A DNA stretch of 48,006 nt, taken from positions 1 through 48,006 of the forward strand of contig JAOAPL010000310.1 of NCBI GenBank assembly GCA_025462925.1, written 5' to 3'. Below the pieces are notes generated by a model that had not been told where the DNA came from, did not search any database, and was given only the letters and a program-made list of their open reading frames with translations. Position numbers and translations under genes: made by a program. Positions 2,922 to 45,363 of this stretch are shown here, in pieces; the first letter of the stretch is position 1, and each line of letters begins with the position of its first letter. This DNA is from Acidobacteriaceae bacterium. Lineage in GTDB: Bacteria; Acidobacteriota; Terriglobia; Terriglobales; Acidobacteriaceae.

Positions 2922-3602
2922 TCAGTGCTTGATTCCATCCTGTCGGATTACTTTTGCCAAGGTGAGCAGTAAGATTTTCATATCAAAGGAAAACGACCGC
3001 TCAAACAGATACTCAAAATCATATTCTACTTTGGTACAAATCGGAAGTTCATCTCGTCCATTAACTTGAGCCCAACCGGTCAGGCCCGGAAGTAACCGAT
3101 GAACGCCCTTTTCGGTTCGCAAGGCTATGAGATCTTCTTGGTTATATAGTGCAGGGCGTGGCCCCACAAAGCTCAAGTCGCCTCTGAGAATACTGTAAAG
3201 TTGCGGCAACTCATCGAGGCTCGACCTTCTGAGAAAAGCCCCTATTGGGCTGAGATACCGGTGGGGATGAGCCAACAAATGGCTGGCAAGTTGCGGCGTA
3301 TCGGACCGCATGCTGCGAAATTTTGGCATTTGAAAAACATGGTTATCTTTGCCGATTCGATCAGACCAGTACAGCACCACACCTTTGGAGGTCAGCTTGA
3401 TCGCCAGCGCGATCATCAGCATAGGAAGGAAACAGAGGAACAAGAGCAAACTAGCGAGAATTACGTCCATCCCTCGCTTTATTATTTCTTGTATATTTCT
3501 GCTCGAGGATGGTATCTCGGCTGTAACGCCAAGATACGCCTCTGTTTGAGAGGCAGTCACTTCAATCTTGCGTTCGAGAACAGATGGTGGCTGCGCATGC
3601 AT
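2922..3602 (-). CDS. Initiating sugar transferase (polyprenyl-phosphate phosphoglycosyltransferase, PglC/WcaJ-like)
   Basis: This small monotopic phosphoglycosyltransferase would transfer a sugar-1-phosphate from a UDP-sugar to undecaprenyl phosphate at the inner membrane, the first step of repeat-unit synthesis. It has an N-terminal hydrophobic helix (about 46-70), then the conserved core KFRSMR, the DE dyad in SLDELPQL, SFVGPRPALY and LPGLTGWAQVNGRD. At about 227 residues it is the short form without the four-helix N-terminal domain of WcaJ. The frame extends to a TTG at 3620, but that codon lies in the T-run of a terminator-like hairpin, so the ATG at 3602 is preferred. It is divergent from the glycosyltransferase at 3781. 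The leader contains a possible attenuator (see 3619-3646). Confidence 0.92.
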   Translation of the reverse strand: MHAQPPSVLERKIEVTASQTEAYLGVTAEIPSSSRNIQEIIKRGMDVILASLLLFLCFLPMLMIALAIKLTSKGVVLYWSDRIGKDNHVFQMPKFRSMRSDTPQLASHLLAHPHRYLSPIGAFLRRSSLDELPQLYSILRGDLSFVGPRPALYNQEDLIALRTEKGVHRLLPGLTGWAQVNGRDELPICTKVEYDFEYLFERSFSFDMKILLLTLAKVIRQDGIKH

Positions 3603-3618
3603 GAAGACACAACTTAAC

Positions 3619-3646
3619 AAAAAACTCCCTATCTGAGAATAGGGAG
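3619..3646 (-). terminator. Terminator-like hairpin in the leader of the sugar transferase gene (possible attenuator)
   Basis: Read on the minus strand, a perfect 8-bp stem (3639-3646 with 3625-3632, loop of 6) is followed at once by six T residues (3619-3624). This is the form of a Rho-independent terminator. It sits 17-44 bases before the ATG of the sugar transferase, and there is no minus-strand gene upstream for it to end, because the next genes are on the plus strand. A shorter alternative hairpin, GAGCT/AGCTC (3655-3659 with 3644-3648), overlaps the terminator arm and would exclude it. The layout fits transcription attenuation, but function is inferred. Confidence 0.6.
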
Positions 3647-13321: not shown

Positions 13322-14698
13322 TCATGGCTGCGGTAGATTGAGGACATCTGTGCCACATCGAACGACAGCATCTCGCGGCAAAAGGAGCAATAGGATCATC
13401 GACAGGAGCATTCCTCCTGACAAGAATGTTGTAAATAATGAAGTGTTACTTATGTTTAAGGCCACGAACGTTAATGAAAGAGCTGCGAATGCAGGGCGGT
13501 GACCACTTGCCGCAGTATCCAAGAGCCAAAAAACCAGACAGCAAATCAGTGACATTCCCAAAACACCTGTCAGCCCGATGCCCGCAATGCCATCCGTGGC
13601 CCAGAAATGAGCGTTCCAGTTCACATTGAAATAGCCTACATAATGGTGCCCGATCTCGATTCCCAGAGGTTCTTGGTATGGATAATGCACTAAAAGATTA
13701 ATTCCATGAACATGTGAGAAGTACGTATTTGGGTGCACCTGAAAGAAATCGTAATACTGCGCTGACAACATGCCCGGGAATCCAAACGTCCTCATAAACG
13801 TGATACTTAATGCATAGAACACCAATGGAGAATTGCCCAGGCCGGAAATCATCGCCAACGAATATAGGGTGCCAAAACACAACACAACCCCCCAAACTAG
13901 CTGGAGCGCAAATCCTGAACTGCTTCGGCGCAACAAAGCGTATAAAATTGTCATGGCAAGAATGGACAAGATCATGCTTTTGCTTCCAGCGGCGCTGTAC
14001 CCCAACAGTTGTCCACAAACCCCGGTGACGAATAGTAACTTCCGACCGTATACAAGACCTCGGGCCATTAGTAATGGATTAATGCTGCTTGAGAGCCAAA
14101 TCAAGGCATAACCGGCGCCACTTCCAGCAATTATGTCATCAGCTGCGTATCGCAATTCATAAACATCTGCAAATGAGACTAGGTGAAGACTCCCACGAAA
14201 CACCCCGACAATCCAGATCACGAGACTTACCGATACAACTCCGAATACTGCCCAGTAAACGGAACGACTTGGAGTGGCAAATTTGATCCGAGGCAGGGGG
14301 AGGGAATAAGCCAAGCCAATCAAGCAGAATCCGGCAAAAATTGCGAGCATGAGTTGCAGAACTTCTTTGGGCGGATTTAAAGCGATGTATAGCGGAACAA
14401 ACATCGAAGGGATGAAGACTGTGAGGTACAAGATCCAATAGATCAACTGTGAGGGGCGAGTCAAAGCGATTGGACTCCAGAGAGCCGGCAAAATGCTCAA
14501 CAGCCAGGCTATTGCAATGTATCCCGATGGAGGGGCTTTGTACTCAAATCCAGCATAGCCAAAGCTTGGACTCAGCCATCCGATATAGGCCAGCTGGAAG
14601 GCCGCAGCAAAGAGAAATATCCCCAGAATGAGGAGTCCTCTGCGCCGCAAGTCGGCCGGAGAAAACAACAGGATTCTGGTCGATACCATATTTCGCAT
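13322..14698 (-). CDS. Multispanning membrane protein, Wzy-like O-antigen/exopolysaccharide polymerase
   Basis: This protein of about 458 residues has some ten to twelve hydrophobic helices and one long polar stretch in the second half. That stretch includes FMRTFGFPGMLSAQYYDFF, HPNTYFSHVHGIN and EIGHHYVGYFN. This arrangement is typical of Wzy polymerases, which share topology rather than sequence. The predicted role is to join lipid-linked repeat units on the periplasmic face. The position directly after the Wzx-type flippase, 11 bases away, supports the call. The start was set at the ATG at 14698; a frame running back to 14869 would overlap the flippase and adds a basic, non-membrane N-terminus. 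A second ATG at 14689 is possible. Confidence 0.7.
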   Translation of the reverse strand: MRNMVSTRILLFSPADLRRRGLLILGIFLFAAAFQLAYIGWLSPSFGYAGFEYKAPPSGYIAIAWLLSILPALWSPIALTRPSQLIYWILYLTVFIPSMFVPLYIALNPPKEVLQLMLAIFAGFCLIGLAYSLPLPRIKFATPSRSVYWAVFGVVSVSLVIWIVGVFRGSLHLVSFADVYELRYAADDIIAGSGAGYALIWLSSSINPLLMARGLVYGRKLLFVTGVCGQLLGYSAAGSKSMILSILAMTILYALLRRSSSGFALQLVWGVVLCFGTLYSLAMISGLGNSPLVFYALSITFMRTFGFPGMLSAQYYDFFQVHPNTYFSHVHGINLLVHYPYQEPLGIEIGHHYVGYFNVNWNAHFWATDGIAGIGLTGVLGMSLICCLVFWLLDTAASGHRPAFAALSLTFVALNISNTSLFTTFLSGGMLLSMILLLLLPRDAVVRCGTDVLNLPQP

Positions 14699-14709
14699 AG
14701 CTATTTTGC

Positions 14710-16023
14710 TCACACTTCGACGAGGACGGCTGTGGACTTTTGCACGCGCTTGTCGATTGCGAGAGAAGAAAATATCAGAACAGCTACATATCCCAAGAGC
14801 GACGTGACTCCATAGGTTACGACCGCTTCTCTGGCCGTAAAATTCGCGCTGGAAGCCAACCAAATACAACCCAAAGTTAAACCTAAGCGCGCCGCATCTA
14901 AGGCAAATTGCTGCCCCTGATGCTCAAGCAAGGTTAAGGTGGGTGTAAATGGCCACGCTACAAAAGTGATGTACTGCATGAGCACCAGAAGCCTAGCATA
15001 GTTGCCCGCCTCTCTCCACGGTTCACCGAATACAAAGGCGAACAATGTTGGGCCTGCGACCAGAATGATCAAACAAGGAGCTAGCGGGAGCCAAACAAGT
15101 TTTTTAATGGTCGCACGGAACAGCAAACGCAATCCTTCCGGATCAGATCTGACGAGAGGAGCGGCCTCTGTCATGTACACCTGGGAAACCGCCTGACCTA
15201 TCAGTGTGGAAGGTACTCCCATTACCCGGTCCGCAAGAGCTAACCAACCAACTACCTTAATTCCATAGAATTGAGCAACTATCAACATCGGCACAGCAGC
15301 ACCGCCCGTGCTGAGCAATGCCGAGAAAGCAGATATGAGTGGGAAATTGCGATATCTCAAGGCAGCAGTCCACATGCCACGAACACTGATACTTTTCAAA
15401 TCAGGCCGGCTTTTATGCCAGGCCAACTTTGCGAGACCTATGCTTCCATTCGCGCGCGCAAAAGCATCTCCTATCAACAGTCCTAGAAGCCCAATGTGAA
15501 AAATACCACCTAATGTCAGCTGAGTGACAATCTGGCTGCCAATCTGAAGAACTTTGGTGCCACTCACCTGCGAAAACGATTTGTGCCGGAACGCCCAATA
15601 GCTCAATGCCTGGTATGTACCGGCTCCGCAAATAGCTAGCGGAAAGATCCACATGTAAGGACGCAAGGCCTCTGCATTACCAAGCGACAGGGTGGTGAAA
15701 TGAGCCCACCCCGAAAGACCTGCCGCAAGCAGGCTCATAAGGCACACAATGCCGAGAGTGACTGCCAGCAAGTTAGCCGCAACGTTTTCGTCCTCGGGGA
15801 GCATGATCGCTACTTCATAACGCCATCCTGCCAACACGATTCCGAGGCTGATAATTGAAAAGTAGACTTGAAAGTTTCCGAAGTCTTGTGTGGTATAGAT
15901 TCGTGTCAATATAGGCGCTGCCAAAACACCAAGCGCCTGGCTGATCGCTGTACCTCCAGCTAACACGGATACACTTCGGCCAAATTTGCCTTTTGGAAGT
16001 ATAGCTTTTATGCGATTTAACAT
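14710..16023 (-). CDS. Wzx-type oligosaccharide flippase (MOP superfamily polysaccharide biosynthesis protein)
   Basis: This 437-residue integral membrane protein has about twelve helices. Near the N-terminus it carries SVLAGGTAISQALGVLAAPI and then RIYTTQDFGNFQVYFS, the recurring R-[LI]-[YF]-x(4)-[FY]-G pattern of Wzx/polysaccharide biosynthesis proteins. It would flip undecaprenyl-diphosphate-linked repeat units from the cytoplasmic to the periplasmic leaflet. It is 11 bases upstream of the polymerase gene, as is common in Wzx/Wzy loci. The ATG at 16023 is taken as start; a TTG at 16071 in the same frame would add 16 residues and cannot be excluded, as neither has a clear ribosome-binding site. 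About 660 bases of non-coding DNA lie upstream, so a promoter there is likely. Confidence 0.88.
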   Translation of the reverse strand: MLNRIKAILPKGKFGRSVSVLAGGTAISQALGVLAAPILTRIYTTQDFGNFQVYFSIISLGIVLAGWRYEVAIMLPEDENVAANLLAVTLGIVCLMSLLAAGLSGWAHFTTLSLGNAEALRPYMWIFPLAICGAGTYQALSYWAFRHKSFSQVSGTKVLQIGSQIVTQLTLGGIFHIGLLGLLIGDAFARANGSIGLAKLAWHKSRPDLKSISVRGMWTAALRYRNFPLISAFSALLSTGGAAVPMLIVAQFYGIKVVGWLALADRVMGVPSTLIGQAVSQVYMTEAAPLVRSDPEGLRLLFRATIKKLVWLPLAPCLIILVAGPTLFAFVFGEPWREAGNYARLLVLMQYITFVAWPFTPTLTLLEHQGQQFALDAARLGLTLGCIWLASSANFTAREAVVTYGVTSLLGYVAVLIFSSLAIDKRVQKSTAVLVEV

Positions 16024-16071
16024 GGAATACGCAGTTCGGAGAGTTGACAGTTTTTCTCGATCTAGATTCAA

Positions 16072-18604: not shown

Positions 18605-19855
18605 TTATGTCCGCGTAGATTGGAACGAGAGCAGGTCTCTTAGGGCGTCCAAACGTGCGGCCTGCGCGGGGTCGGATCTTAGAGACTCTTTTAGTTCCAG
18701 CAGAAATGCCAAAAGTGCTCCAATGAATCCGCCTATGAAAGTGCACAGCAAAATGATCAGTAATCGTGCTGGTCTGGATTTTCTTTCTGGCTCTATGGCT
18801 TTATCCATCACCTGAATCAAAGGGGCATTCTTGGCCTCGTCAATTCTTGCTGCCTCGTATTGCTTGGCAAGAATTTCAAATATCGCTTCAAAATACTTCA
18901 CATTGCGCAGCTTTCTCATGTATTCAAGGCCGGCCTCCGGTACTCGCCCTGTACCGACTTGAATATCGCCATTACCGGAGCTCTTATCCCGTTCCAATTT
19001 CGCGAGCTGCGACCGCAGGGCATCCAATTCTTGCTGCAGCCGGACGATATCCGGGTTTGCATTAGTCGCGAATGATCGCATGCCTTGCAACTGCACTTCT
19101 CTTGTGGCTATTTGAGCGCGAAGGTTGGCGACGGATTCGATAATCGCTTTCGCTTGACTTTCGAGCTGAATCAATCCGGTGGTTTCCTGCGTCTTTTTCA
19201 GATCAACTTCTGCGTTACTAAGGTTTTCTTTTGCCAACTGCAGCTGACTTTCAAAGAACAACCGCCTTTGAGATGCTTCGGTTACGGCTAGGGCCTGAGA
19301 TAGTTTCAGCAGCTCCTCCACATATCCGTTGGCCAATGCGGATGCCAATTTCGGGTCTCTATTCGATACGGATACTGAAATCAAACCATCTTTGCCAACC
19401 GAGATCTCAGAGTCATCTGCCAGTCTCTCGCGAGCCTCTATTAAAAGCTTCAGACGATAACAGTCCTGTAGTTTAAAGCGAAGAACCAGAGCTTCTGTAA
19501 TTGTGCGACTTTGAAGCATCGCGGCATAAAGTTCAGTGACGCTGGAAGTCTTTGATACAAGGCCCTGCCCGGCTAATCCCGCAAGCGAACCCAGTTGCCC
19601 GAGCATCGCTGCCGTGCTCGATTGCGCCTGTTGCGGCGGCAACAATTTTGTCGTGGCCGTATAAATATTCGGAAGGAACAACACTGTAACTAGAGTCACA
19701 ACGGCAGAAGCAACCGTTAGGCGCGCAATCAATACCTTTCGTTTTGCAAGTACGATCAAGAGATCCAAAAGGTTAATGGTATCCGCGTCACGTGATACTC
19801 CATCGCCCCCCGGCTTTGCGGCGGCCGAATACGCATTGTCAATAATGGTCTGCAT
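18605..19855 (-). CDS. Polysaccharide co-polymerase, Wzz/GumC-like chain-length determinant
   Basis: This 416-residue inner-membrane protein has a cytoplasmic head, a first transmembrane helix near residues 42-62 and the LFLPNIYTATTKLLPPQQ stretch that opens the Wzz domain. A long periplasmic coiled coil follows (about 185-320, rich in Gln, Glu, Leu and Arg). A second transmembrane helix with the Pro/Gly-rich motif (RPARLLIILLCTFIGGFIGA) is near the C-terminus. It would control chain length and couple polymerisation to the Wza-like outer-membrane exporter encoded just upstream. There is no C-terminal tyrosine kinase domain. The start is the ATG at 19855, 28 bases after the stop of the export gene; the frame running to 19933 overlaps that gene and is unlikely. 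Confidence 0.9.
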   Translation of the reverse strand: MQTIIDNAYSAAAKPGGDGVSRDADTINLLDLLIVLAKRKVLIARLTVASAVVTLVTVLFLPNIYTATTKLLPPQQAQSSTAAMLGQLGSLAGLAGQGLVSKTSSVTELYAAMLQSRTITEALVLRFKLQDCYRLKLLIEARERLADDSEISVGKDGLISVSVSNRDPKLASALANGYVEELLKLSQALAVTEASQRRLFFESQLQLAKENLSNAEVDLKKTQETTGLIQLESQAKAIIESVANLRAQIATREVQLQGMRSFATNANPDIVRLQQELDALRSQLAKLERDKSSGNGDIQVGTGRVPEAGLEYMRKLRNVKYFEAIFEILAKQYEAARIDEAKNAPLIQVMDKAIEPERKSRPARLLIILLCTFIGGFIGALLAFLLELKESLRSDPAQAARLDALRDLLSFQSTRT

Positions 19856-19883
19856 AGAATCTCGGGACGTCACGTGGACGCAA

Positions 19884-22385
19884 TTATTTCGTGAGCGTGT
19901 TGATAGCGGCAACGCCCAATGCGAACTGTCCAATCACTTGGGACCAATCTTTTAAACCCTTCAATACGCTTGTCTTGTCCAGTTGCTCGGGAATAACAAT
20001 TGTGTCGCCAGGCATTAGCTTAAGAGACTCGAAGCCGCTGCTGAACCAACCTGCTGATCGCGATTTGCTGACGATTGACCCATCGGCGCGCACCACAAAC
20101 GAGTGGGATCGATCCGCTTCCCGAGTACCGCCTCCTGCCTTATGCACATAAAAATCAATGTTGTTCCTAGATTGATACAGATATGAATTGTCATTGTAGA
20201 CCGCCCCGACAACATTCACTGTTGATGGCACATAGGGAACTACGAAACGATCGCCGTCTTCCAGAAGAAGGGTGGGGAGCGCATCGACTCCCGTCTGGCT
20301 TGGCTTCAGGCCCAGCACGACGCGGCCAGTTGCTTTGACTTGCTTTAGTTTTTCAACCAGCTTGCGTTGCGTGTCAACTCTGTCCTTTAAGGCTAATGCT
20401 TCTTCGGTACTCACGACGTTTTGTGATTTATTCGAAGTCCTACGCTCGACATCCCTTTCGAATCTGTCCACGAGTTCGTCCAAATTCTTCTGTTGTGTTT
20501 CCCTTGCGGACTCTCTTGTGAATTCGGCACCGAAAAGATAGGCGTTTGTGGTTAAGCCGCCTACACGAGCTACCAGTTGCGGCAAGGTTTCTCCCGGCTT
20601 CACCTCGTATACCCCAGCCGAAGCGAACTCGCCTTCGAGCGTCACAAATTTGCTGCGATTCTCTTCTGGGACTTTGATATCTAGCTGTGAAAAAATCGTG
20701 ATTACATCGCCGGGCTGCAGCAACAGATTATCCGCATTCTCGCCTCCGCTTATCGCTTTGCCCAAATTGAATGGAACCAAATTCGTGGCCAGCGATTCAC
20801 GATTGAGACGCTGGACAACTGCGTAATCCCAATTGATATCAGGTGCTGTCCTGCGTATCTCATTAGAGAACTTCGCTTGGTTCAGACGATTCGCTTTTTC
20901 AACAGTTGCGCTTTGCTTGCCGAAACCGGCCCGTTGAGATCTCTCGCCTTGGATATCGTCTTGGATCTCGTCTTGATTGCCGCGAACCGCTTTATCATCC
21001 AAGTGACCATCCGTACCCGCCGAGTATCCATCTGTACCGGTAAAGTAACCATCGATACCGCGGCCTCCGCGGATGTTGCTCGATGGCAGCCTTGCCGTTC
21101 GCTTAATCTCGAAGTCATCTTTGCCAAGATCACTTTGAGCCAACCAGAAATTTCGCGTCACCAAAGCTTCTCGACTGGTAATCAGGTCACTGATTCGAAT
21201 TCCTTCTTTCCAAGGATAACGACCGGGGGCGGCAACGTTACCTCGAATCGTTATGGCATTGTCGAAGCGAGCTGAGAGTGCTCTCAGGGTAACCAAATCC
21301 CCGTCCTGCAGAATACGTCCAAAACCAGAATCGTCCAATGTGAACTCTTCGATGGCGCGCACAGATCGGTCTTTAATTCTTTCAACGGTTGCCTTCTGGC
21401 CGGATGCCGTTGACGTGAGACCTCCTGCAAGCTGGATCAAGTCGCCTAAATTCGTTTTAGGTTTTATCTCGTAGATTGCAGGGACATTGACGCTGCCATT
21501 CATCGCGATCGTGGGGCCAACCGGTGGAATGTAAATAACGTCCCCAGGCAGCAATTGCGCATCCTTGCTCTTGTCTCCATTTATGAACAGATCGTAAAGG
21601 TCGAACTCAGTAATGACTTGAGCACCACGTTTGAGTTGGATTCTGCGCATTGACCCCTTTGCAGAGGGGCCACCGGAAGCAAATACTGCATTTACAAGTG
21701 TACTCAGCGAACTCACGGTATAGCTTCCGGGGCGCTTGGCTTGGCCCACGACAAAGACCTGAATAGAGCGCAGTTGCCCCAATGTTACGTTCAGATCAAA
21801 ATCGCGAAAAACACGACCGATTGCCGACTTGAGCAAGGGTTGCAGCTCTCGATATTTCACGCCGGAAACATTCACATTACCGACCTTTGGTATGAACAAA
21901 TTGCCGACGCGGTCCACTACAGCATGGTAGTCGATGTCAATTTGTCCCCATCCTCGGAGCATGATCTCGTCGCCCGGCCCAATCACATACTCCGAAGTGA
22001 CCGGCACACGATCAACTGGAGCAAAAGTGGACGGCACCCCACGAAACAGGTCCTGTCCGAACATCCTCAGCTTTTGCTCTGTGGAAGCAAACACAAATTG
22101 TTGAAATTCGGTTTGCGGCTCGGGTTGTTCTCTAGCCTCCTCGTTGCGAATTCTGAAGGATTCCCTGTCGTCAGAGTCGGAGCGGCGGGCAGTAGGGTTA
22201 GCGGAATCCGAGTTTGTAATTCGTTCTCTTCCAGGCTGGGCAGGCCTGTCCTCCGTATTTTGAGGGTAACGGGTAGACTGCCTATCTTGTGAGCTCGGAT
22301 ACTGTCCCGACTCTTGCGAAGATTGTCCGTACATCCCTGTGAGAGAGCTTAGGAACAAAAATAGAGCTAATAACCCACGATACAT
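19884..22385 (-). CDS. Wza-like polysaccharide export protein with multiple SLBB domains
   Basis: This is an 833-residue secreted protein. MYRGLLALFLFLSSLTGMYGQ is a signal peptide, which places the start at the ATG at 22385 (AGGG eight bases upstream). A low-complexity polar linker leads to the polysaccharide export domain (EYVIGPGDEIMLRGWG, then LFIPKVGNVNVSG). Several SLBB-type repeats follow: VFVVGQAKRPGSYTVSS, MNGSVNVPAIYEIKPKTN, IRGNVAAPGRYPWKEG, LEGEFASAGVYEVKPGE and VNVVGAVYNDNSYLYQ. It would form the outer-membrane/periplasmic export channel together with the Wzz-like protein. There is no lipobox cysteine after the signal peptide, unlike E. coli Wza. An insert near the middle carries a short GTDGY-type repeat, and a Lys/Glu-rich helix precedes the last domain. 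It is much longer than Wza (about 380). Confidence 0.9.
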   Translation of the reverse strand: MYRGLLALFLFLSSLTGMYGQSSQESGQYPSSQDRQSTRYPQNTEDRPAQPGRERITNSDSANPTARRSDSDDRESFRIRNEEAREQPEPQTEFQQFVFASTEQKLRMFGQDLFRGVPSTFAPVDRVPVTSEYVIGPGDEIMLRGWGQIDIDYHAVVDRVGNLFIPKVGNVNVSGVKYRELQPLLKSAIGRVFRDFDLNVTLGQLRSIQVFVVGQAKRPGSYTVSSLSTLVNAVFASGGPSAKGSMRRIQLKRGAQVITEFDLYDLFINGDKSKDAQLLPGDVIYIPPVGPTIAMNGSVNVPAIYEIKPKTNLGDLIQLAGGLTSTASGQKATVERIKDRSVRAIEEFTLDDSGFGRILQDGDLVTLRALSARFDNAITIRGNVAAPGRYPWKEGIRISDLITSREALVTRNFWLAQSDLGKDDFEIKRTARLPSSNIRGGRGIDGYFTGTDGYSAGTDGHLDDKAVRGNQDEIQDDIQGERSQRAGFGKQSATVEKANRLNQAKFSNEIRRTAPDINWDYAVVQRLNRESLATNLVPFNLGKAISGGENADNLLLQPGDVITIFSQLDIKVPEENRSKFVTLEGEFASAGVYEVKPGETLPQLVARVGGLTTNAYLFGAEFTRESARETQQKNLDELVDRFERDVERRTSNKSQNVVSTEEALALKDRVDTQRKLVEKLKQVKATGRVVLGLKPSQTGVDALPTLLLEDGDRFVVPYVPSTVNVVGAVYNDNSYLYQSRNNIDFYVHKAGGGTREADRSHSFVVRADGSIVSKSRSAGWFSSGFESLKLMPGDTIVIPEQLDKTSVLKGLKDWSQVIGQFALGVAAINTLTK

Positions 22386-22566
22386 TTTGATTGCCCTACA
22401 ATCGAATAATTCTAAATAGTTTGTCTTCAACTTGATTACACCGGTTCGCATCGCCTGCATGTAACAGTTCCCTGCTTCACAGGAATCTGCCGGAATTCAA
22501 CTTAGCGTGGCGGATTGATAGATATACCACATCATCCCCAAGCGATAACACAGGGAAGCTCATCAG

Positions 22567-25104
22567 CTAAGGCAAAGGCCTTTTGCTCCTTGGGTGGAGG
22601 ACGAACATAATGGAAGTGCTCAGGTCCGACTGTTGTTGTAGGGATAAAACAGGAAACTTCCATCTTTCGTACTGAGTTGTAACACTGAAACTTGTAGTCG
22701 GACCAAATTCCCAATCCACTCCGGCCCGGAAATCGTCATAGCGTCCTCCGCCGATGAAGTTCGGATTTACATTTGCGTTTCGATAAGCCAGTTGCAGTTT
22801 CTTTCTCCCCGAGAACCAGTATGTGCTTGAAGCGTTGAACCCACTTCCCTCTCTTCCAATCCAGTCTCCCAGGAGTTGACTCCGGTTTGTATACCCATTT
22901 AGAAAGCGATTGTTGCTGTAAGCGACCCCATCCCCATTCAAATTTGGAATATCGGTGTAAACACCTTCCGCCCTGAAATCTAACTTGTGAACCCAAGGTA
23001 ACCGAGGCAAATAGATTCCGGGACGAAATGACGACTTGCGCGGAAAGGAGATAGGTGAAAATTCGTCCTCAGTAAATGCATCGCTGTACAAGATCAGCCA
23101 GTTGCGCAGTTTCGGGACTCGATAGCTGAAATCGAAACCGCTACGCCGATCGCCGGGATCCCCGTCCTGTCCGGGAACGGTATTTCCAAGCGAATAGCTG
23201 TTCAGCAAGGCACGAAAATTCAGAGGAAGTCCTGGGCCGCCCCACACCGTTGTCTCAGAAAAACCAAATTCCAGATTTGGAGTCGGCTTGAAACTAAACT
23301 TCTCTCCATGTAGTAGCGGCTGATTGCTTAATGAAGGGCCGAATAATCCATTTGCGGTCCGAACAAATGTATGTCCCGAAAGCTGACCTAGGAAGAACTC
23401 GGTGCGAACGGGTCCTAGGAAGCCGAACACACTAGGCAATTTCATCGGCGTAACTCTGCTTACCCGAAACATTGGAACGGGTTCGGCATTGTTCGAGAAA
23501 TTAAGCGCGCCATTCTCTCCCGGTCCCCACCACAGTGACTGCTTGCCGAATGAAAACTGCCAGTTGTTTATCGTGTAGCTGGCGTACGCGTCCAGGAGAC
23601 GAAATTGATTTAGCTCCGTGTGCACCGACGGCTGCACCGGGGTAAAGTCTGCAATTGCAATTGCATTCATGGCTTGCGCTGAGAGCCCCGGGGCCGACGG
23701 GGAATGCTGATATTCGCCTTGCACGTAAAAAGCCCATCTGCCATGAGTGGCTGAACCAGATATGCCGGTAATGGCATTGAAACCTTCCTGATAAGGGCGC
23801 CCGTAATCGTTATAGATCGTTTCGCCGAAGTGATATCCATCAGTTAACGGCTGCCCTGAAATCGCCGTTACCCTACTGTAAACAGAATCAAGCCTAAACA
23901 CGGGAGCAAGCGTACCTGCCGAGACTTCCGCATCCATTGCAAATTCGGCCTTAAGCGATTCGATAAGGTGCTCCGGCTCAACGCTGTCTTCATTACCCAG
24001 GGACTCGTCAGCTTCTTCGACAAGTCCCAAACATTCCATTCGCGTCCATGGCTTGAGCCCGCTGAAGCCAGAACGAATAAGTCCCATTGCGGTTAGACGA
24101 TCAATGGCCGGATAGACCCAACTATCGAGGGGAACATAGGTCGAACCCAAAGATCCGCGCGCAGTGCCTTCATCCCTCACCGGGTGGATAGTTCCAATGT
24201 CGACCCCAGGAAGGTCCGCATCATGGTGCCGTTTATAAACTTGGTTGCCTATGGCCCAACCCAAAGCGCTACCCACTACTACATCCGACGGGAAGTGCTG
24301 GCGTCCCGTAACGCGCGCCAGGCTGATAGCAGAAGCTAATCCATAAACGCCGATTTTTGTAAGAGGTCCTGGGTACTCACGGGCCAATACCGCAGCCATA
24401 CTCCACGCTGCCATCGCGTGTGCAGACGGGAAAGAATCTCCGCTCGGCTGAAAGAAGCCCCCCTGTCCATCTCCGTCAAACGGCCTTTGTCTGCGTAGCA
24501 TGTACTTCAACCCGTAGGTCACTGCCAAACTATTAGCCAGCGCCTCCGAGCCGAGTATGCCAGTTTCGTGGGCGTGATCGTTCGCCTTAAAACGTCCGAG
24601 AAAATAGAGTCCACCAACTGAAGCGCCTAGGGCCACTACGCTCATATCAGAGAACGTTTTACTGGTCTGGGCATGGGCATCCGTTACACTCAAGCCGCGG
24701 TATGCATCCACGTCGCGATACATTATTCCTGCAACAATACCTGCGGCAGGAACAAGCCAGAAGGAGTCTTTCCGCTTAAGACGCAAGGGACTCATCCAGA
24801 TGTCGCGTTGATCTCGAATGAAATTGATGGCAAAAGAGCGCTCGAGGGAGGGCGTTGAAAGCTGTCGGCCTATTGTATTTTTTTCTGGCTCCGAAGAACT
24901 ATCGGGTTTACTGCCTGTTGATTCTGGCCCTGCCTTAACGTTTGCGCCGCGTCGGTCTGTACGACTGTCGGATTCCCTTGAAGTTGCTGGTTTGGAAATT
25001 CCGGTTCCATTCTGCGCGATGCAAAGTTGCGGAATGATAGCAATGATAATTGCCGTGATTCTTATTAACACTGCTTGCTTGCTTTCGATTCGGGGACACA
25101 TCAT
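22567..25104 (-). CDS. PAP2 phosphatase domain fused to a Wzi-type outer-membrane barrel
   Basis: This 845-residue protein joins two families. An N-terminal signal-like helix (about 10-30) and a polar Ser/Glu linker lead to a PAP2 domain. Its three motifs are all present: KX6RP (K200 to P208), PSAH (226-229) and R264-x5-H270-x3-D274. From about 325, LDSWVYPAIDRLTAMGLI opens a capsule-assembly Wzi-type region, followed by a long beta-strand-rich barrel with QFSFGKQSLWWGPGENGALN. Wzi anchors capsule at the outer membrane; PAP2 enzymes remove phosphate from lipid pyrophosphates. The fused protein may couple carrier recycling or lipid dephosphorylation to surface attachment, which is inference. 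It lies 181 bases upstream of the Wza-like gene and downstream of fcl. No clear ribosome-binding site precedes the two adjacent ATG codons. Confidence 0.85.
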   Translation of the reverse strand: MMCPRIESKQAVLIRITAIIIAIIPQLCIAQNGTGISKPATSRESDSRTDRRGANVKAGPESTGSKPDSSSEPEKNTIGRQLSTPSLERSFAINFIRDQRDIWMSPLRLKRKDSFWLVPAAGIVAGIMYRDVDAYRGLSVTDAHAQTSKTFSDMSVVALGASVGGLYFLGRFKANDHAHETGILGSEALANSLAVTYGLKYMLRRQRPFDGDGQGGFFQPSGDSFPSAHAMAAWSMAAVLAREYPGPLTKIGVYGLASAISLARVTGRQHFPSDVVVGSALGWAIGNQVYKRHHDADLPGVDIGTIHPVRDEGTARGSLGSTYVPLDSWVYPAIDRLTAMGLIRSGFSGLKPWTRMECLGLVEEADESLGNEDSVEPEHLIESLKAEFAMDAEVSAGTLAPVFRLDSVYSRVTAISGQPLTDGYHFGETIYNDYGRPYQEGFNAITGISGSATHGRWAFYVQGEYQHSPSAPGLSAQAMNAIAIADFTPVQPSVHTELNQFRLLDAYASYTINNWQFSFGKQSLWWGPGENGALNFSNNAEPVPMFRVSRVTPMKLPSVFGFLGPVRTEFFLGQLSGHTFVRTANGLFGPSLSNQPLLHGEKFSFKPTPNLEFGFSETTVWGGPGLPLNFRALLNSYSLGNTVPGQDGDPGDRRSGFDFSYRVPKLRNWLILYSDAFTEDEFSPISFPRKSSFRPGIYLPRLPWVHKLDFRAEGVYTDIPNLNGDGVAYSNNRFLNGYTNRSQLLGDWIGREGSGFNASSTYWFSGRKKLQLAYRNANVNPNFIGGGRYDDFRAGVDWEFGPTTSFSVTTQYERWKFPVLSLQQQSDLSTSIMFVLHPRSKRPLP

Positions 25105-25184: not shown

Positions 25185-26141
25185 TTAAGACCGCATGAAA
25201 TCTTGATAGCTTTGCGTCAAGCCTGAGCGCAAATCTATCTTCGGACTCCAGCCGAGCGCGCTCAATCGATTGACATCCAATAACTTTCGCGGGGTACCAT
25301 CAGGTTTTGAGGTGTCGAACACCAACTCCCCCGGGAACCCGACTACCTCTGCCACAAGTTGCGCAAGCTCACGAATGGTGAAGTCCTCGCCACAGCCAAC
25401 ATTGATCAGCGGTGGACAGTCTCCGCCGTCAACAAGCGGTGAAAACTCTTCTTCGGGCAAGTTCATCAAAAAAATGCAGGCGTCCGCCGCGTCCGTGCTG
25501 AACAAGAATTCTCTCCGCGGGGATCCTGATCCCCAGACAACGACCTCGCTGGCATCACTTACTTTGGCCTCATGGAATTTGCGGATCAGAGCCGGAATCA
25601 CGTGTGAAGTCTGCAGATCGTAGCTGTCTCCGACGCCGTAAAGATTTGTAGGCATGGCGGCCAGAAACTCCGTCCTGTACTGCCGGTTGTATGCCCAACA
25701 CAACTCAATGCCAGCGATCTTCGCGATGGCGTACGGACGATTTGTAGGCTCCAGCGGGCCAGTAAGTAAGTATTCCTCTTTGATCGGCTGTGGACAGTGC
25801 TTCGGATAGATGCAACTTGACCCGAGCAGCAAAAGACGTCTCACCCCTGCCCGGAAGGCCTCATGAATAACTGATGTTTCGATGCTGAGGTTTTCAAAGA
25901 TGAATTCTGCCGGGAAATTTTGGTTGGCAAGTATCCCGCCAACCTTGGCCGCCGCGAGGAACACGTACTCGGGCCGTTCTTGTTGCATAAATGCTTCGAC
26001 GGCCTGCGGATCTCGAAGATCAAGCTCCGCTCGGGTTCGCAATAACAGATTGTTGTAACCTGCGGCACGGAGTTGACATACTATGGCGGAGCCAACCAGT
26101 CCACGGTGCCCGGCCACAAAGATTTTTGCTGAAGAGTCCAT
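25185..26141 (-). CDS. fcl: GDP-L-fucose synthase
   Basis: This 318-residue SDR converts GDP-4-keto-6-deoxy-D-mannose to GDP-L-fucose by 3,5-epimerisation and NADPH reduction in the cytoplasm. It has FVAGHRGLVGSAIV near the N-terminus, LLGSSCIYP with the catalytic Ser, YAIAK as the YxxxK pair, MPTNLYGVGD and the GSGSPRREFLF stretch typical of GDP-fucose synthases. Length is normal. The start at 26141 lies seven bases after the gmd stop. The frame continues upstream inside gmd, but the Rossmann motif sits correctly only from MDSSAKIF. gmd and fcl form a two-step operon supplying fucose (or a derivative) to the polysaccharide. Confidence 0.95.
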   Translation of the reverse strand: MDSSAKIFVAGHRGLVGSAIVCQLRAAGYNNLLLRTRAELDLRDPQAVEAFMQQERPEYVFLAAAKVGGILANQNFPAEFIFENLSIETSVIHEAFRAGVRRLLLLGSSCIYPKHCPQPIKEEYLLTGPLEPTNRPYAIAKIAGIELCWAYNRQYRTEFLAAMPTNLYGVGDSYDLQTSHVIPALIRKFHEAKVSDASEVVVWGSGSPRREFLFSTDAADACIFLMNLPEEEFSPLVDGGDCPPLINVGCGEDFTIRELAQLVAEVVGFPGELVFDTSKPDGTPRKLLDVNRLSALGWSPKIDLRSGLTQSYQDFMRS

Positions 26142-26148
26142 CAGGGGA

Positions 26149-27231
26149 TTATGCGTGCCGGCCGTAAACCTTGTAGCCATGATTCTTAACAAGGTCGTCT
26201 CGCTCGGCAGACTTCAGATCAACTGCGACCATTTCGGCAACAAGCTCTCTGAAACCGATCTTTGATGACCAACCAAGTTTTGTCCGCGCCTTGCTGGCGT
26301 CACCAATCAAGCTCTCAACTTCGGCTGGACGGAAGTATCTTGGATCTACTGCAACGACGCAATTTCCCTTGGAATCAAAACCCTTCTCGTCCTGTCCAAT
26401 ACCTTCCCATCGAATTACTAGTCCCAGTTCCGATGCAGCCGCATCGACGAACTCACGAACGCTGTGCTGTTCACCCGTAGCGATCACGAAATCTTCAGGC
26501 GTATCCTGCTGAAGCATGAGCCATTGCATTTCAACGTAATCACGTGCGTGTCCCCAATCACGCTTGGCGTTCAGGTTGCCCAAGTAAAGACAACCCTGCA
26601 ACCCCAATTTGATTCGGGCGAGTGCACGGGTAATCTTTCTCGTAACGAAAGTCTCACCCCTCACCGGAGATTCATGATTGAAAAGAATTCCATTGCATGC
26701 GTACATTCCGTACGCTTCGCGATAGTTGATCGTGATCCAGTAGGCGTAGAGCTTGGCAACCGCGTATGGCGAACGAGGATAAAAAGGAGTTTTTTCAGTC
26801 TGTGGAACTTCTTGTACCAAGCCGTAAAGTTCCGATGTTGACGCCTGATAGAACCGCGTTTTCTTCTCTAGTCCAAGCACTCGGATTGCTTCTAACAATC
26901 GAAGCGCCCCCAAGGCATCTGCGTTCGCAGAATATTCTGGCTCTTCGAATGACACTGCGACATGACTTTGCGCAGCGAGGTTATAAACTTCATCGGGCTG
27001 AACCTGTTGCATGATATGCAAAAGGCTGCTCGAGTCAGTCATATCACCGTGATGCAACACAAGTTTCCGGTTCGGCGTGTGCGGATCCTGGTAAAGATGG
27101 TCAATCCGGTCGGTGTTAAACAAGGAGGTGCGGCGCTTCATGCCGTGGACTTCATATCCCTTGTCCAGCAACAGTTCTGCTAAATACGAGCCATCTTGCC
27201 CAGTAATTCCTGTGATTAGTGCTCTTTTCAT
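26149..27231 (-). CDS. gmd: GDP-mannose 4,6-dehydratase
   Basis: This enzyme of about 360 residues makes GDP-4-keto-6-deoxy-D-mannose from GDP-D-mannose, the first step to GDP-L-fucose. It is recognised by [19 protein letters not shown] at the N-terminus, [18 protein letters not shown], the STSELYG catalytic stretch, [12 protein letters not shown] with the YxxxK pair, and [17 protein letters not shown], all diagnostic of Gmd. The ATG at 27231 is chosen; GAGGAA sits unusually close before it, and a TTG at 27240 is the alternative. It is followed directly by fcl. The mannose-1-phosphate guanylyltransferase needed for its substrate is not in this window. Confidence 0.96.
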
Positions 27232-27344
27232 CTTCCTCAAATGCGGTGATGCGTTGATTTCACGGTAGCCGAGGCAGGTATGCAGATACGCAGTGAAGGT
27301 ACTCAGATATTATCAGAAACTCACGCCGGTGAAGCGCAGCACCT

Positions 27345-30300
27345 TTAAGGATTTTCGCGCAATTCTCTCTTAATCCGGGTAGGCGCGGGATTACTTTCCA
27401 CCGTAGCCGTGATTAAGGTACTTCGCACTATATTTCCCACGCGCGCGTTTACTTGTAATTGGTAGTCGCCCGCCGCTATGCCAAGCGTCGAAGATAACCG
27501 TTTGGCTCGTCCCGATGTTGAACCCGGCTTTGAAGTGTTGAATGTTACTTGTATCGGAATCGATGCTGCGGCCAGTGTCACCTGCGCCGGCTCCACATTA
27601 CATTGCGTTCCGGCTGGCGCTCCCACACACTCCAGCGTGACCACTTCATTCGACGTACCAGTGCTCGCCAATTCCAAATCCATTGACTTCGATTGTCCCG
27701 CAACAACAATAATGTCGGCTGCGCTCCGCACGGGCCGCGTTGGACGGCTGCCCGGCGCAGTGGAAACTCCAGTGCCAGTCGCACCGTTGCGTGAATTACG
27801 TGCAGCAGACAAGGTGAAATTTACACCGGTTCCATTCAGGGTTACGTTTCGGGTGCCGCCACTATCATTCACGGTGATCGATCCAGTGAATGGACCCACA
27901 GCGCCCGGCGAAAAAGTTACTGTAATACTGCAACTCCCTCCGTTGGCGATTGGACTTCCCGTGCAGGTTTCAGAGCGAGCAAATGCTGCTCCGGAAATTC
28001 CAACACCGCTTACGGTGATCGTCGAACCTGTGTTGTTGAAATAAGTCAGCGTCTCCGATGAACTCCGCCCGATAATCGATGACATATTCACCGACGCCTT
28101 TGACAGCAAAGCTGGCGCCGTACCGGAGACGTTGATGGTCATCGTGCCCGATTCGCTCGGATAGTAGCCCGTCACGAGAATGTCGTAATTCACTCCTGCA
28201 CTAACTGGTAGGTTTTGGATCTGCGATGTCCTCAAGACTCCAGGATTGATGTCGTCATTACATCCGTTCGGTAGCGTTGTGGGATTCACAGCCGTGAAGC
28301 CAACGCGCAGATCGCCAGTCCAAACGGAAAGAATCGTGTCGTAGGCGCTGCCGATCGTGTCGATGCTAATGTTGCCGCTCGTACTCGGAGTGTAGCGATA
28401 CCAGACGGCGTGATGATTCACTCTTGGATTGGGATCATAATCAAGAGCATCGCCGCTGACAGTGGAGAGAGTGACACAGCTGGGAGATGGAGGAACAGGA
28501 TCCGTCTGCGCCGATACTGCCCCTAATGTATCAATCGTATTCGTGTAGGGCACTACGTTGATAACCTTGGCGAAATCAAAGACATCATTCACAGGAATAA
28601 TGATTCCTGTGCCTGACAGCGAAGCAGTAGTGGTTGTGGGGTTGGCATTGCTCGTTACTGTAAGCGTATTCGACCGGACTCCCGCGGCGCTGGGGCTGAA
28701 AGTCACGTTGATCGTACAGCTGCCGCTCGGGGCAATCGAAGTACAGTTATTGGTCTGGGCGAAATCTCCAGCGGGAATAGAGACATTGCTCACGGTGAGA
28801 GTCGTCGTACCAGTGTTGGTCAGAGTCACGATTGCCGGGGAGCTTGTAATTCCCACCTTCTGCTGTCCGAAGGTAAGGCCTCCCGGTGAAAGAGTTGCAC
28901 ACGGTCCCGTGACACACGAAGGCACCGCCAAATCCCACATCCCGCGCCCGTGAGTAGCAGCGCGCAACGTTCGTGAAGGCCGGTGCAGTTTGAGCCCCAA
29001 GACGGCGACGTTGGGAAGACCCGTCCTCAAGGTTGCCCAGGACGCTCCGTCATTGATGCTGACAAACACACCTACGTCCGTGGCAAGGTAAAGCGTGCCG
29101 GCGATATCGGGGTCCACAACAATGTCGTTAGCGGGAGTGTTCGGCAGATTGTTGGTAATGTTCGACCACGTTGTCCCCCCGTCAGGGGTCTTGAATACGT
29201 GAGAGCCGGCTGTGAAGCCAGGTACTGCGATGTACGCTACGTTTGAACTCACCGCCGCCACACCGCTGATCTGCGTGTTCGCAGGTGTAGGAGGCGCAGC
29301 AGTTGTTGCGCTCGCACTCGATCCAAGATTTATGACTTTGCTGAAGCGACCATCGGTCGTGACCACGAAAGCGGTACTGTTATCGGGTGTGATGGCAATG
29401 TTCGTGATAGTTTCAGATCCACCACCGGTCAAATCACCAGTAATTGCGGCCCACGTCGGCGAGGAACCGTTCGAGGTCGCTTGCCACAACCTGTACGATC
29501 CGAAATAAACCTTCATCGGATTGCCAGTATCACCCACCATGGGGGGAATAAATCCAACTCGGCTGGAGTCAGTAATCCCGCTTCCGGCCGTGTTTTGGCT
29601 GCCGAAGGTGCCTGGGTTGCCGCTCGTGGATCTGCGAACGTCCACTAGCTGACAGTTCGCGAAGACCGTGCTTGGGGTATTTACATCCACCACAGCGCCG
29701 GCACCGTCACCGCAAGTGGCCTCGTCCCAAGCCAGATTGCCGCTGTACTTCTGCGTTCCGTTGTCTTGAGTGCCTCCGTAAGTGACTTGGCTGTCAGTGG
29801 GGTGCAATCCAAAGTAGCCATAAAACTGGGTGATATTGAGGCTGCTATTCAGTTCCGTCCAATTTATGGATGTTCCTGTGGTTGTGTCAGTCGTGCTGTA
29901 GACTCCGCCGTCGTTGCCGATATACATCTTTCCGCCGGTCGAAGTGAATGAAGCCGCATGCTGGTCCGCATGGATATTGGTGGTTGCCAAAGTCCAATTC
30001 GCGCCGCCGTCGGTAGTGCGATACAGGAAGTTGTTATTCGGGAAACCGGAACCGCCCACAAAGACGTTGTTTGGATTTGCAGGATTCACGGCAACCAACA
30101 TGTCGTAAAAACACTGGTCTGTGCAGAAGTCAGGAGTGTTTGTCAGCTTGGTCCAATTCACTCCTGCATCTGTACTCTTGTACAAACCGGAGAGTGCTGA
30201 AGTGCTGGCCACGGCGAGTGCCGCATAGGCCGTACCGGCACCATCCGTGCCGAGTGAAACCCTGTCAGTTCCCGTAACCGTAATGACGCTTCCATTTCCT

Positions 30301-31331
30301 GAGACTCCAACGCAAGTGGGAGTTGTTGCAAAACCCGAACACGTAAACACACCTTGCTTATGAATCCCCACCAGAGCAGTGGTGCTATTTACGAATACAA
30401 CCGAATCGGCCGGAGCCGACGCGGCTCCAGAGACGGCTGTCCAAGTGGCCCCTGCATCTGGAGACCAGAACAGGCCGGCGCTATTGCTGAATGCCGTGTT
30501 CACCGCGGCAAGCAAGTGGCCGTTATTCCCCACGCCTGGCTGGATCGCAATGGCTCCTATTCGAGCACCTCCACATCCCAGGAAGTCGCTGGTGCAAAAT
30601 AGAGTCGTCGGTGCGAACTGTTGCTGGCCGAGACGAGTCCAACTGGCACCACCATTGGTTGACTTCAGTATGCCGACGCCATAGTAACTGTCGCTGCCGT
30701 AATTCTCTTCCCCAGTACCGACGTAGATGACCTGCGAATTCGTCGGATCAATAGCAATCGACCCTGTAGCCAGCGAGAGCTGGGAGTCTGTCAATGCAGT
30801 CCACGAAGTGCCGGAGTCAACGCTCTTCCAGACACCGCCCTGCGCTGCACCCAGGTAAACAGTGGCTGGAGTATTTGGATCGACTGCAAGGGCAGTAACG
30901 CGCCCGGAAAAATGCGCGCCGCCTCCGCTGTTTGCAGGATTTGGATTCGTTGGTTGCGGCCCGATCGGAGTCCATTGCGAGGCACTGGGAGCAATCGCGC
31001 TGGATTCGCGCACCGCCGCGGTTGATTCGGTCGTACTCCCTGAGCTTGCAGCCGAAACAGATTGCCAGTAGGCCTTGCCCTCGCGTTCCAACATCCCGTT
31101 TACTTCTTTGAGCGCGTGCTCACGTGCGCCGGGAGGTGTTCCCTGCTTTCCGCCACGCTTCTGCACCAGATACTCTGCTCGGGCGCGGGGGTCATCTTTC
31201 TCGTGCTCTTGCACCTTTTGCGCGAGGGTTGCGGGGGCCAGCGAGAACAAGATGGCCAGCATCGTAGTCCATCCAAATGGGGCTTTTCGCAGAGAAATTC
31301 TGGCGAGCCTACGGTAACAAGTGGACATCAT
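27345..31331 (-). CDS. Secreted sortilin/VPS10-like beta-propeller protein with choice-of-anchor D domains
   Basis: This protein of about 1,328 residues has a signal peptide (MLAILFSLAPATLAQ, near 30) and a charged helical stretch. A large beta-propeller of BNR/sortilin-type repeats follows (about 115-805), with recurring VYLGAAQGGVWKSVDSGTSW, ILKSTNGGASWTRLG and LYRTTDGGANWTLA units. A HYDIN-like choice-of-anchor D domain comes next (about 810-910), then a PPC-like domain (to about 1075), a second anchor-D domain (to about 1170) and a C-terminal Ig-like module with LECVGAPAGTQCNVEP. The protein is exported; function is unknown, possibly adhesion or polymer binding. The start is one of the paired ATGs at 31331/31328 behind GGAG. 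It is related to the protein at 34125-37514, with the rfbBAC operon between them. Confidence 0.82.
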   Translation of the reverse strand: MMSTCYRRLARISLRKAPFGWTTMLAILFSLAPATLAQKVQEHEKDDPRARAEYLVQKRGGKQGTPPGAREHALKEVNGMLEREGKAYWQSVSAASSGSTTESTAAVRESSAIAPSASQWTPIGPQPTNPNPANSGGGAHFSGRVTALAVDPNTPATVYLGAAQGGVWKSVDSGTSWTALTDSQLSLATGSIAIDPTNSQVIYVGTGEENYGSDSYYGVGILKSTNGGASWTRLGQQQFAPTTLFCTSDFLGCGGARIGAIAIQPGVGNNGHLLAAVNTAFSNSAGLFWSPDAGATWTAVSGAASAPADSVVFVNSTTALVGIHKQGVFTCSGFATTPTCVGVSGNGSVITVTGTDRVSLGTDGAGTAYAALAVASTSALSGLYKSTDAGVNWTKLTNTPDFCTDQCFYDMLVAVNPANPNNVFVGGSGFPNNNFLYRTTDGGANWTLATTNIHADQHAASFTSTGGKMYIGNDGGVYSTTDTTTGTSINWTELNSSLNITQFYGYFGLHPTDSQVTYGGTQDNGTQKYSGNLAWDEATCGDGAGAVVDVNTPSTVFANCQLVDVRRSTSGNPGTFGSQNTAGSGITDSSRVGFIPPMVGDTGNPMKVYFGSYRLWQATSNGSSPTWAAITGDLTGGGSETITNIAITPDNSTAFVVTTDGRFSKVINLGSSASATTAAPPTPANTQISGVAAVSSNVAYIAVPGFTAGSHVFKTPDGGTTWSNITNNLPNTPANDIVVDPDIAGTLYLATDVGVFVSINDGASWATLRTGLPNVAVLGLKLHRPSRTLRAATHGRGMWDLAVPSCVTGPCATLSPGGLTFGQQKVGITSSPAIVTLTNTGTTTLTVSNVSIPAGDFAQTNNCTSIAPSGSCTINVTFSPSAAGVRSNTLTVTSNANPTTTTASLSGTGIIIPVNDVFDFAKVINVVPYTNTIDTLGAVSAQTDPVPPSPSCVTLSTVSGDALDYDPNPRVNHHAVWYRYTPSTSGNISIDTIGSAYDTILSVWTGDLRVGFTAVNPTTLPNGCNDDINPGVLRTSQIQNLPVSAGVNYDILVTGYYPSESGTMTINVSGTAPALLSKASVNMSSIIGRSSSETLTYFNNTGSTITVSGVGISGAAFARSETCTGSPIANGGSCSITVTFSPGAVGPFTGSITVNDSGGTRNVTLNGTGVNFTLSAARNSRNGATGTGVSTAPGSRPTRPVRSAADIIVVAGQSKSMDLELASTGTSNEVVTLECVGAPAGTQCNVEPAQVTLAAASIPIQVTFNTSKPGSTSGRAKRLSSTLGIAAGDYQLQVNARVGNIVRSTLITATVESNPAPTRIKRELRENP

Positions 31332-31470
31332 TTCACTCCGCAAAGGAACTGCCCGATTACACCGGAGTTGAGGGAGGGCCCCGGAAGAAGAAAAAGGCTG
31401 AGATGCTGGTTAAGCTACAAACTTTACCATTTGCAGGGGGATGTCGCTGTAAATTTAATCTTCGGGACGG

Positions 31471-41326: not shown

Positions 41327-41340
41327 TACAACCTCCACTG

Positions 41341-45156: not shown

Positions 45157-45177
45157 GGTGACACCTCCAGGAAAGTA

Positions 45178-45235
45178 GCAGAGACTCCCTCCGTAAAGTT
45201 CTGCCGAAGAGACATATGCATGGAGATTGCCAAAC
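45178..45235 (-). promoter_or_regulatory. Conserved 5' leader of the second TonB-dependent receptor gene
   Basis: This is the counterpart of 41341-41398. It has the same TTTGGCAAT-x-TCCATGCA-x-ATGT block, then GGCAGA and TCTGC arms around a loop that again contains ACGGA, ending just before the GGAGGT ribosome-binding site. A short frame starting at the ATG inside the block ends with a TGA that overlaps the receptor's GTG start (GTGA). This could be a coupled leader peptide, but the frame is not kept in the other copy. Confidence 0.5.
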
Positions 45236-45363
45236 AAAAATCGTTCACATCAGAGGGAATGACTGCTGATGGAATGACTCTGTCTTTAGAAATCTAAATA
45301 AGGATCAACGCTGAATTTTGTTTACTGAAGTGTTCAAAGGCCCGCTCTGATTTTTCGAATGCA

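Follow-up and report, generated by a model that had tools for sequence, protein, structure and literature searches.

We describe a PAP2 phosphatase domain fused in frame to a Wzi-type outer-membrane barrel, encoded in a polysaccharide export cluster of an Acidobacteriaceae bacterium. The PAP2-Wzi fusion is apparently a real, conserved and so far undescribed domain architecture, and no earlier report of it was found in the open-access literature. Many soil Acidobacteriota carry this fusion of a phosphatase to a probable capsule-anchoring barrel inside capsule-export gene clusters. We propose, with a probability of about 0.7 that covers no single substrate, that the PAP2 half works as a phosphatase in the periplasm, with Wzi tethering it to the outer membrane where the polysaccharide exits. 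The fusion itself, its fold, the conservation of its motifs, its gene context and the low computed hydrophobicity of its helices are the observations behind this proposal, and from them we infer localisation and activity.

Domain layout and predicted structure

According to Pfam, the protein contains a PAP2 domain (PF01569, residues 188-294, E 1e-18, 67.7 bits against a curated cut-off of 27.2) and a Caps_assemb_Wzi domain (PF14052, residues 416-826, E 2e-112, 376.4 bits against 30.1). The PAP2 signatures KX6RP, PSxH and RX5HX3D are all intact (Table 1). By eye, the N-terminus shows one hydrophobic segment followed by a signal-peptidase-like site between CIA and QN. Thus Pfam, the AlphaFold model and this signal-peptide-like start bear out a preliminary description of the locus, which had claimed a PAP2 phosphatase and a Wzi barrel in one polypeptide, three intact motifs in the first 280 residues and a single signal-like helix ahead of both domains. 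A sequence search of solved structures with the fusion protein returned Wzi (2ynk) at 1e-12 and, weakly, the class A acid phosphatase 9htz.

A full-length AlphaFold2 model, built on a 45-sequence alignment made for this analysis, reached a mean pLDDT of 84.6 and a pTM of 0.70. It consists of a signal helix, a disordered stretch (24-82), a PAP2 helical bundle (87-293), a short linker (305-312), a plug (330-395) and barrel strands (402-836). The placement of PAP2 and Wzi relative to each other in the model is uncertain, given this pTM and a linker pLDDT under 50. Full-length prediction had been suggested earlier as a check, the absence of a barrel after residue 325 counting against the fusion; the model has a barrel of about 18 strands there. 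The "entry segment" that had been placed at about residue 325 does lead into a Wzi-like barrel, and it is Wzi's own helical plug, as the match to 2ynk runs from residue 321. We had also considered an SLH domain in residues 314-410. Pfam gave no SLH match in that segment, and this candidate was dropped because the segment is the Wzi plug.

The Wzi half aligns with E. coli Wzi (2ynk) with Z 35.3 over 426 residues from residue 321, about 19% of the structurally aligned residues being identical. The runner-up barrels, OprD-family proteins and AlgE, lie far below (Z 18-19). Like the E. coli K30/Klebsiella protein (2ynk; PMC3791409), the fusion has an 18-strand-type barrel, an N-terminal helical plug and a Wza-type export cluster around it, but E. 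coli Wzi carries no enzyme domain, whereas PAP2 precedes the plug here. The PAP2 domain modelled alone (pLDDT 94) is closest to Aquifex aeolicus LpxE (6ebu, Z 16.2) and to the Bacillus subtilis PGP phosphatase YodM (5jki, Z 15.8). Human LPP1 (Z 13.8), the soluble class A acid phosphatase PhoN (Z 12.7, against 16.2 for LpxE) and G6PC1 (Z 12.6) score lower.

Table 1. Features of the PAP2-Wzi fusion and of its gene neighbourhood
Feature	Position	Strand	Remarks
PAP2-Wzi fusion gene	22567..25104	(-)	ATG start, 845 aa
Predicted signal peptide, residues 1-30	25015..25104	(-)	sequence (ends ...PQLCIA, followed by QNG); helix 9-27 in model
Disordered linker, residues 31-83	24856..25014	(-)	pLDDT under 50 for residues 24-82
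PAP2 domain, residues 84-300	24205..24855	(-)	PF01569; model pLDDT 94
PAP2 motif 1, KYMLRRQRP (200-208)	24481..24507	(-)	motif reading
PAP2 motif 2, PSAH (226-229)	24418..24429	(-)	motif reading
PAP2 motif 3, RVTGRQHFPSD (264-274)	24283..24315	(-)	predicted nucleophile His270
Wzi N-terminal helical bundle (plug), residues 321-398	23911..24144	(-)	2ynk match; helices 330-395 in model
Wzi-type barrel, ~18 strands, residues 399-840	22585..23910	(-)	PF14052; 2ynk match
OPX (Wza/EpsE-like polysaccharide export, several SLBB domains)	19884..22460	(-)	~107 bp downstream of fusion
PCP (Wzz/GNVR chain-length determinant, two TM segments)	18605..19933	(-)	overlaps OPX
NAD-dependent epimerase, likely GDP-fucose synthase	25185..26192	(-)	80 bp upstream of fusion
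GDP-mannose 4,6-dehydratase	26149..27240	(-)	
Wzx-type flippase	14710..16071	(-)	
Candidate Wzy polymerase	13322..14869	(-)	at least 9 hydrophobic segments, no Pfam match
Initiating sugar-phosphate transferase (Bac_transf)	2922..3620	(-)	

Distribution, gene context and history of the fusion

We sampled 60 genomes of the host's family (Acidobacteriaceae), nearly every one from a different genus. The sample holds 32 PAP2-Wzi fusions in 26 genomes, with PAP2 N-terminal and in frame in all of them. This recurrence, together with other fusions that lie on long contigs (G016 C1, 4.9 Mb), leads us to reject an assembly error or chimera. The host's draft genome carries a second fusion (826 aa, 50% identical) on a different contig, between OPX and PCP genes. 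The preliminary description had asked for the co-occurrence of PF01569 with the Wzi family across Acidobacteriota, and would have been contradicted by halves that are always separate genes; the two are fused in many independent genomes. Stand-alone Wzi occurs in 21 of the 60 genomes and both forms coexist in only 4, so that 43 genomes have Wzi and 17 of these have the unfused form alone. In a sample of 297 genomes across Acidobacteriota, both halves share one frame, among the matches listed, only in the host's family; outside it, homologues of the PAP2 half were found as separate proteins, most of them about 280-340 aa long. A contig search whose reach was limited to close relatives gave 5 loci with the fusion, which may also occur outside Acidobacteriota. 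Plasmid records contained Wzi without PAP2 and no fusion, and a viral structure library gave no informative match.

The fusion gene is embedded in polysaccharide functions. Besides the genes of Table 1, glycosyltransferases are encoded in the window, by which we mean the whole 48,006-nt stretch of DNA analysed. OPX or PCP lies within 7 kb of the fusion at 28 of 32 fused loci (neither in the other four), and OPX lies within 300 bp at 19 of them, with no recognised OPX at that distance in 13. The usual order is OPX - PAP2-Wzi - PCP. At loci L125 and L128, a stand-alone Wzi occupies the OPX-Wzi-PCP slot as the fused gene does elsewhere. The capsule context is supported: OPX/PCP genes adjoin most of the fused genes sampled. 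The OPX protein beside the fusion is a long multi-SLBB protein, unlike in the E. coli system. Myxococcus Wzp porins (PMC9603273) are likewise 18-strand barrels genetically paired with an OPX protein; no plug or enzyme is reported for them, whereas the barrel described here retains the Wzi plug.

The window also encodes two very large proteins with a Vps10/BNR-like propeller and ASPM/HYDIN-type Ig domains (27345-31343 and 34125-37514, both on the minus strand), which flank its rhamnose and fucose genes. Tandem outer-membrane barrels of about 1210 aa with carboxypeptidase-regulatory domains (OMP_b-brl_4) are encoded at 37694-41338 and 41602-45237, also on the minus strand.

When 73 Wzi domains are placed on a tree, fused ones turn up on most deep branches, with unfused clades nested among them. 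The fused or unfused state changes at least 6 times on this tree, against 24.6 in shuffles. This tree, which is unrooted, fits a fusion that arose early and was then lost several times. In G109 C45, near 46872-46946, an unfused Wzi is preceded in frame by 25 residues that are 60% identical to the PAP2 C-terminus, a relic that possibly reflects the decay of a fusion. A stand-alone PAP2 of the fused subgroup was detected in 12 of the 17 genomes with unfused Wzi only, versus 4 of 22 with the fusion only (Fisher p 0.0025); in the 60-genome sample, weaker stand-alone PAP2 matches were tallied non-exhaustively. This complementarity is only suggestive, as the genomes are related and many are drafts. 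In the own genome (G000, 79% complete), no PAP2 domain was detected beyond those of the two fusions. A different PAP2 fusion was seen in genome G067 (L121, 6584-9604, plus strand): in about 1007 aa, a membrane-type PAP2 without signal peptide is followed in the same frame by a secreted F5/8-type-C domain and a weak GH39-like region.

Membrane topology

PAP2 phosphatases of lipid pyrophosphates usually sit in the inner membrane and Wzi in the outer membrane, a conflict raised in the preliminary description. It is mostly apparent. We counted strongly hydrophobic windows (Kyte-Doolittle mean over 1.6), with one scale and window for all groups. The count per protein is 0.03 for fused PAP2 domains (n=31) and 4.5 for 12 further, membrane-type PAP2s of the same family (p 6e-10); stand-alone homologues of the fused domain (8 + 9 proteins) have 0.25-0.44. 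On the Hessa scale, the summed score of each predicted PAP2 helix of the 845-aa protein lies between +5 and +13; such sums of values from the published biological scale are crude and position-independent. The fused PAP2 lacks the five to six strongly hydrophobic helices of the LPT branch (PgpB, LpxE), and its closest stand-alone homologues, of about 280 aa, have signal-peptide-like starts. Judged from sequence, the fused PAP2 belongs to a subgroup predicted to be exported, polar and signal-peptide-bearing; it thus need not be an inner-membrane protein. Soluble PAP2 versions have been noted before (PMC12419801). Since the N-terminus of E. coli Wzi faces the periplasm (PMC3791409), the fused PAP2 would be placed there too.

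The C-termini of the stand-alone PAP2 homologues at L039, L041, L047, L063 and L115 share a conserved amphipathic pair, for example FSLSAVNTANGRGLQLSYNFAR, beta-hairpin-like and with a terminal aromatic residue. It is possibly an outer-membrane or partner-binding tail.

The nearest solved structures of the PAP2 half, Aquifex LpxE and B. subtilis YodM, share its fold (Z about 16) and catalytic motifs, but they are integral to the inner or plasma membrane and have neither signal peptide nor barrel. Their membrane location would favour a protein bridging both membranes, with PAP2 in the inner membrane and a linker reaching Wzi in the outer one. We consider this very unlikely: the helices are far less hydrophobic than those of membrane PAP2s of the same family, and the linker between PAP2 (ending at 293) and Wzi (from about 321) has under 30 residues, too short to span the periplasm comfortably.

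A closer precedent is Porphyromonas gingivalis LpxE, described in 2025 (PMC12704123), with a signal peptide, an N-terminal PAP2 whose helices are less hydrophobic (raised dGapp), a C-terminal barrel and a predicted outer-membrane location. Its barrel has about 200 aa and eight predicted strands and is not Wzi, whereas that of the fusion is a Wzi barrel of about 440 residues. Further, it needs the type IX secretion system for its activity, and no OPX/PCP capsule linkage has been described for it. The principle of a barrel-tethered PAP2 is thus already known, and the Wzi version appears to be new.

In the tethered-phosphatase reading that we prefer, Sec would export the fusion protein, and its C-terminal Wzi barrel would be built into the outer membrane in the orientation of E. 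coli Wzi, whose N-terminus faces the periplasm. The LpxE/YodM-fold PAP2, its helices too polar for capture by the inner membrane, would pass through and come to lie next to the OPX/PCP export machine, tethered at the periplasmic face of the outer membrane. Using the His nucleophile typical of PAP2 enzymes, it would take a terminal phosphate off a substrate situated where the polysaccharide exits the cell or is anchored. The role put forward in the preliminary description, dephosphorylation of a lipid or trimming of a lipid-linked glycan as it arrives, would be compatible with such a location. A phosphorylated outer-membrane lipid, for instance lipid A 1-phosphate, would be the most likely substrate, and the phosphate end of the arriving polymer the second.

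Catalytic residues and candidate substrates

R264, H270 and D274 are invariant in the 38 fused proteins compared, while the motif-2 His is kept in 36 and the motif-1 Lys in 33. In A. aeolicus LpxE, Asp replaces the motif-2 His (PMC6581854). Given the conserved catalytic residues, the PAP2 enzyme is probably active in most fused proteins, and activity may be lost in some, those without the motif-2 His or the motif-1 Lys.

The substrate could be lipid A or a phospholipid, whose 1-phosphate the tethered PAP2 would remove around the export site, shifting surface charge so that the capsule docks. We hold this tentatively, at less than even odds. The top structural score is that of A. aeolicus LpxE, tied with the PGP phosphatase, and P. 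gingivalis LpxE dephosphorylates lipid A (PMC12704123). LpxC is encoded in the own genome, so the host probably makes lipid A, a possible substrate. However, the fused PAP2 is only about 20% identical to LpxE, and LpxE enzymes are promiscuous, that of A. aeolicus accepting lipid A, C55-PP and PGP (PMC6581854). Among ten neighbours scanned around stand-alone PAP2 homologues, nothing conserved hints at the substrate, nor is there a conserved lipid A-related gene. Soluble acid phosphatases and glucose-6-phosphatase are likewise among the structural neighbours, at Z 12-13, and a lipid substrate is one candidate.

PAP2 enzymes cleave terminal phosphates, and it is therefore unlikely that the polymer is released directly from undecaprenyl-diphosphate by PAP2. 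A reducing-end phosphate or a phosphate substituent might instead be removed as the chain meets Wzi, a reading suggested by the fusion of PAP2 to the polymer-binding protein itself, by the close linkage of OPX/PCP and by sugar phosphatases that share the PAP2 fold, such as G6PC1. We think it fairly unlikely: Wzy-dependent export has no known intermediate in the form of a free glycan-1-phosphate, PAP2 enzymes are not known to cleave such phosphodiesters, and many Wzi-bearing genomes (17 of the 43 above) manage with the unfused form.

Alternatively, PAP2 could recycle undecaprenyl-diphosphate by hydrolysing the carrier lipid once polymerisation is done. The absence of a further PAP2 in the incomplete own genome and weak matches, far below the cut-off, to undecaprenyl-diphosphatase models would agree with this. 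But that genome also encodes a BacA-type undecaprenyl-diphosphatase, so that C55-PP recycling need not depend on the fusion protein, and an outer-membrane tether would keep PAP2 away from the inner-membrane carrier. Such a role is distinctly improbable. Phosphate scavenging by an acid phosphatase or phytase-like enzyme, with Wzi merely as its anchor, is only a little less so. Class A acid phosphatases, which are soluble, have the same fold, and a secreted soil PAP2 phytase exists (PMC6355987), but the fused genes lie consistently in polysaccharide export clusters, and N-terminal Wzi domains face the periplasm and not the outside (PMC3791409).

The tethered-phosphatase reading bears on capsule assembly as well. 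How Wzy-dependent polymers are released from their carrier and retained at the surface is still an open question. It is tempting to propose, though we regard it as rather unlikely, that the Wzi-tethered phosphatase acts on the exported polysaccharide, or on its lipid or phosphate end, at surface attachment. If true, the release, termination or anchoring of Wzx/Wzy-type polymers would be coupled to dephosphorylation by Wzi itself.

In summary, a phosphatase-Wzi fusion kept in many Acidobacteriota genera suggests that an enzyme acts at the outer membrane, in a step absent from standard capsule models. It extends the P. gingivalis LpxE case towards the broader notion that PAP2 enzymes may turn polar and be carried to the outer membrane by a barrel.
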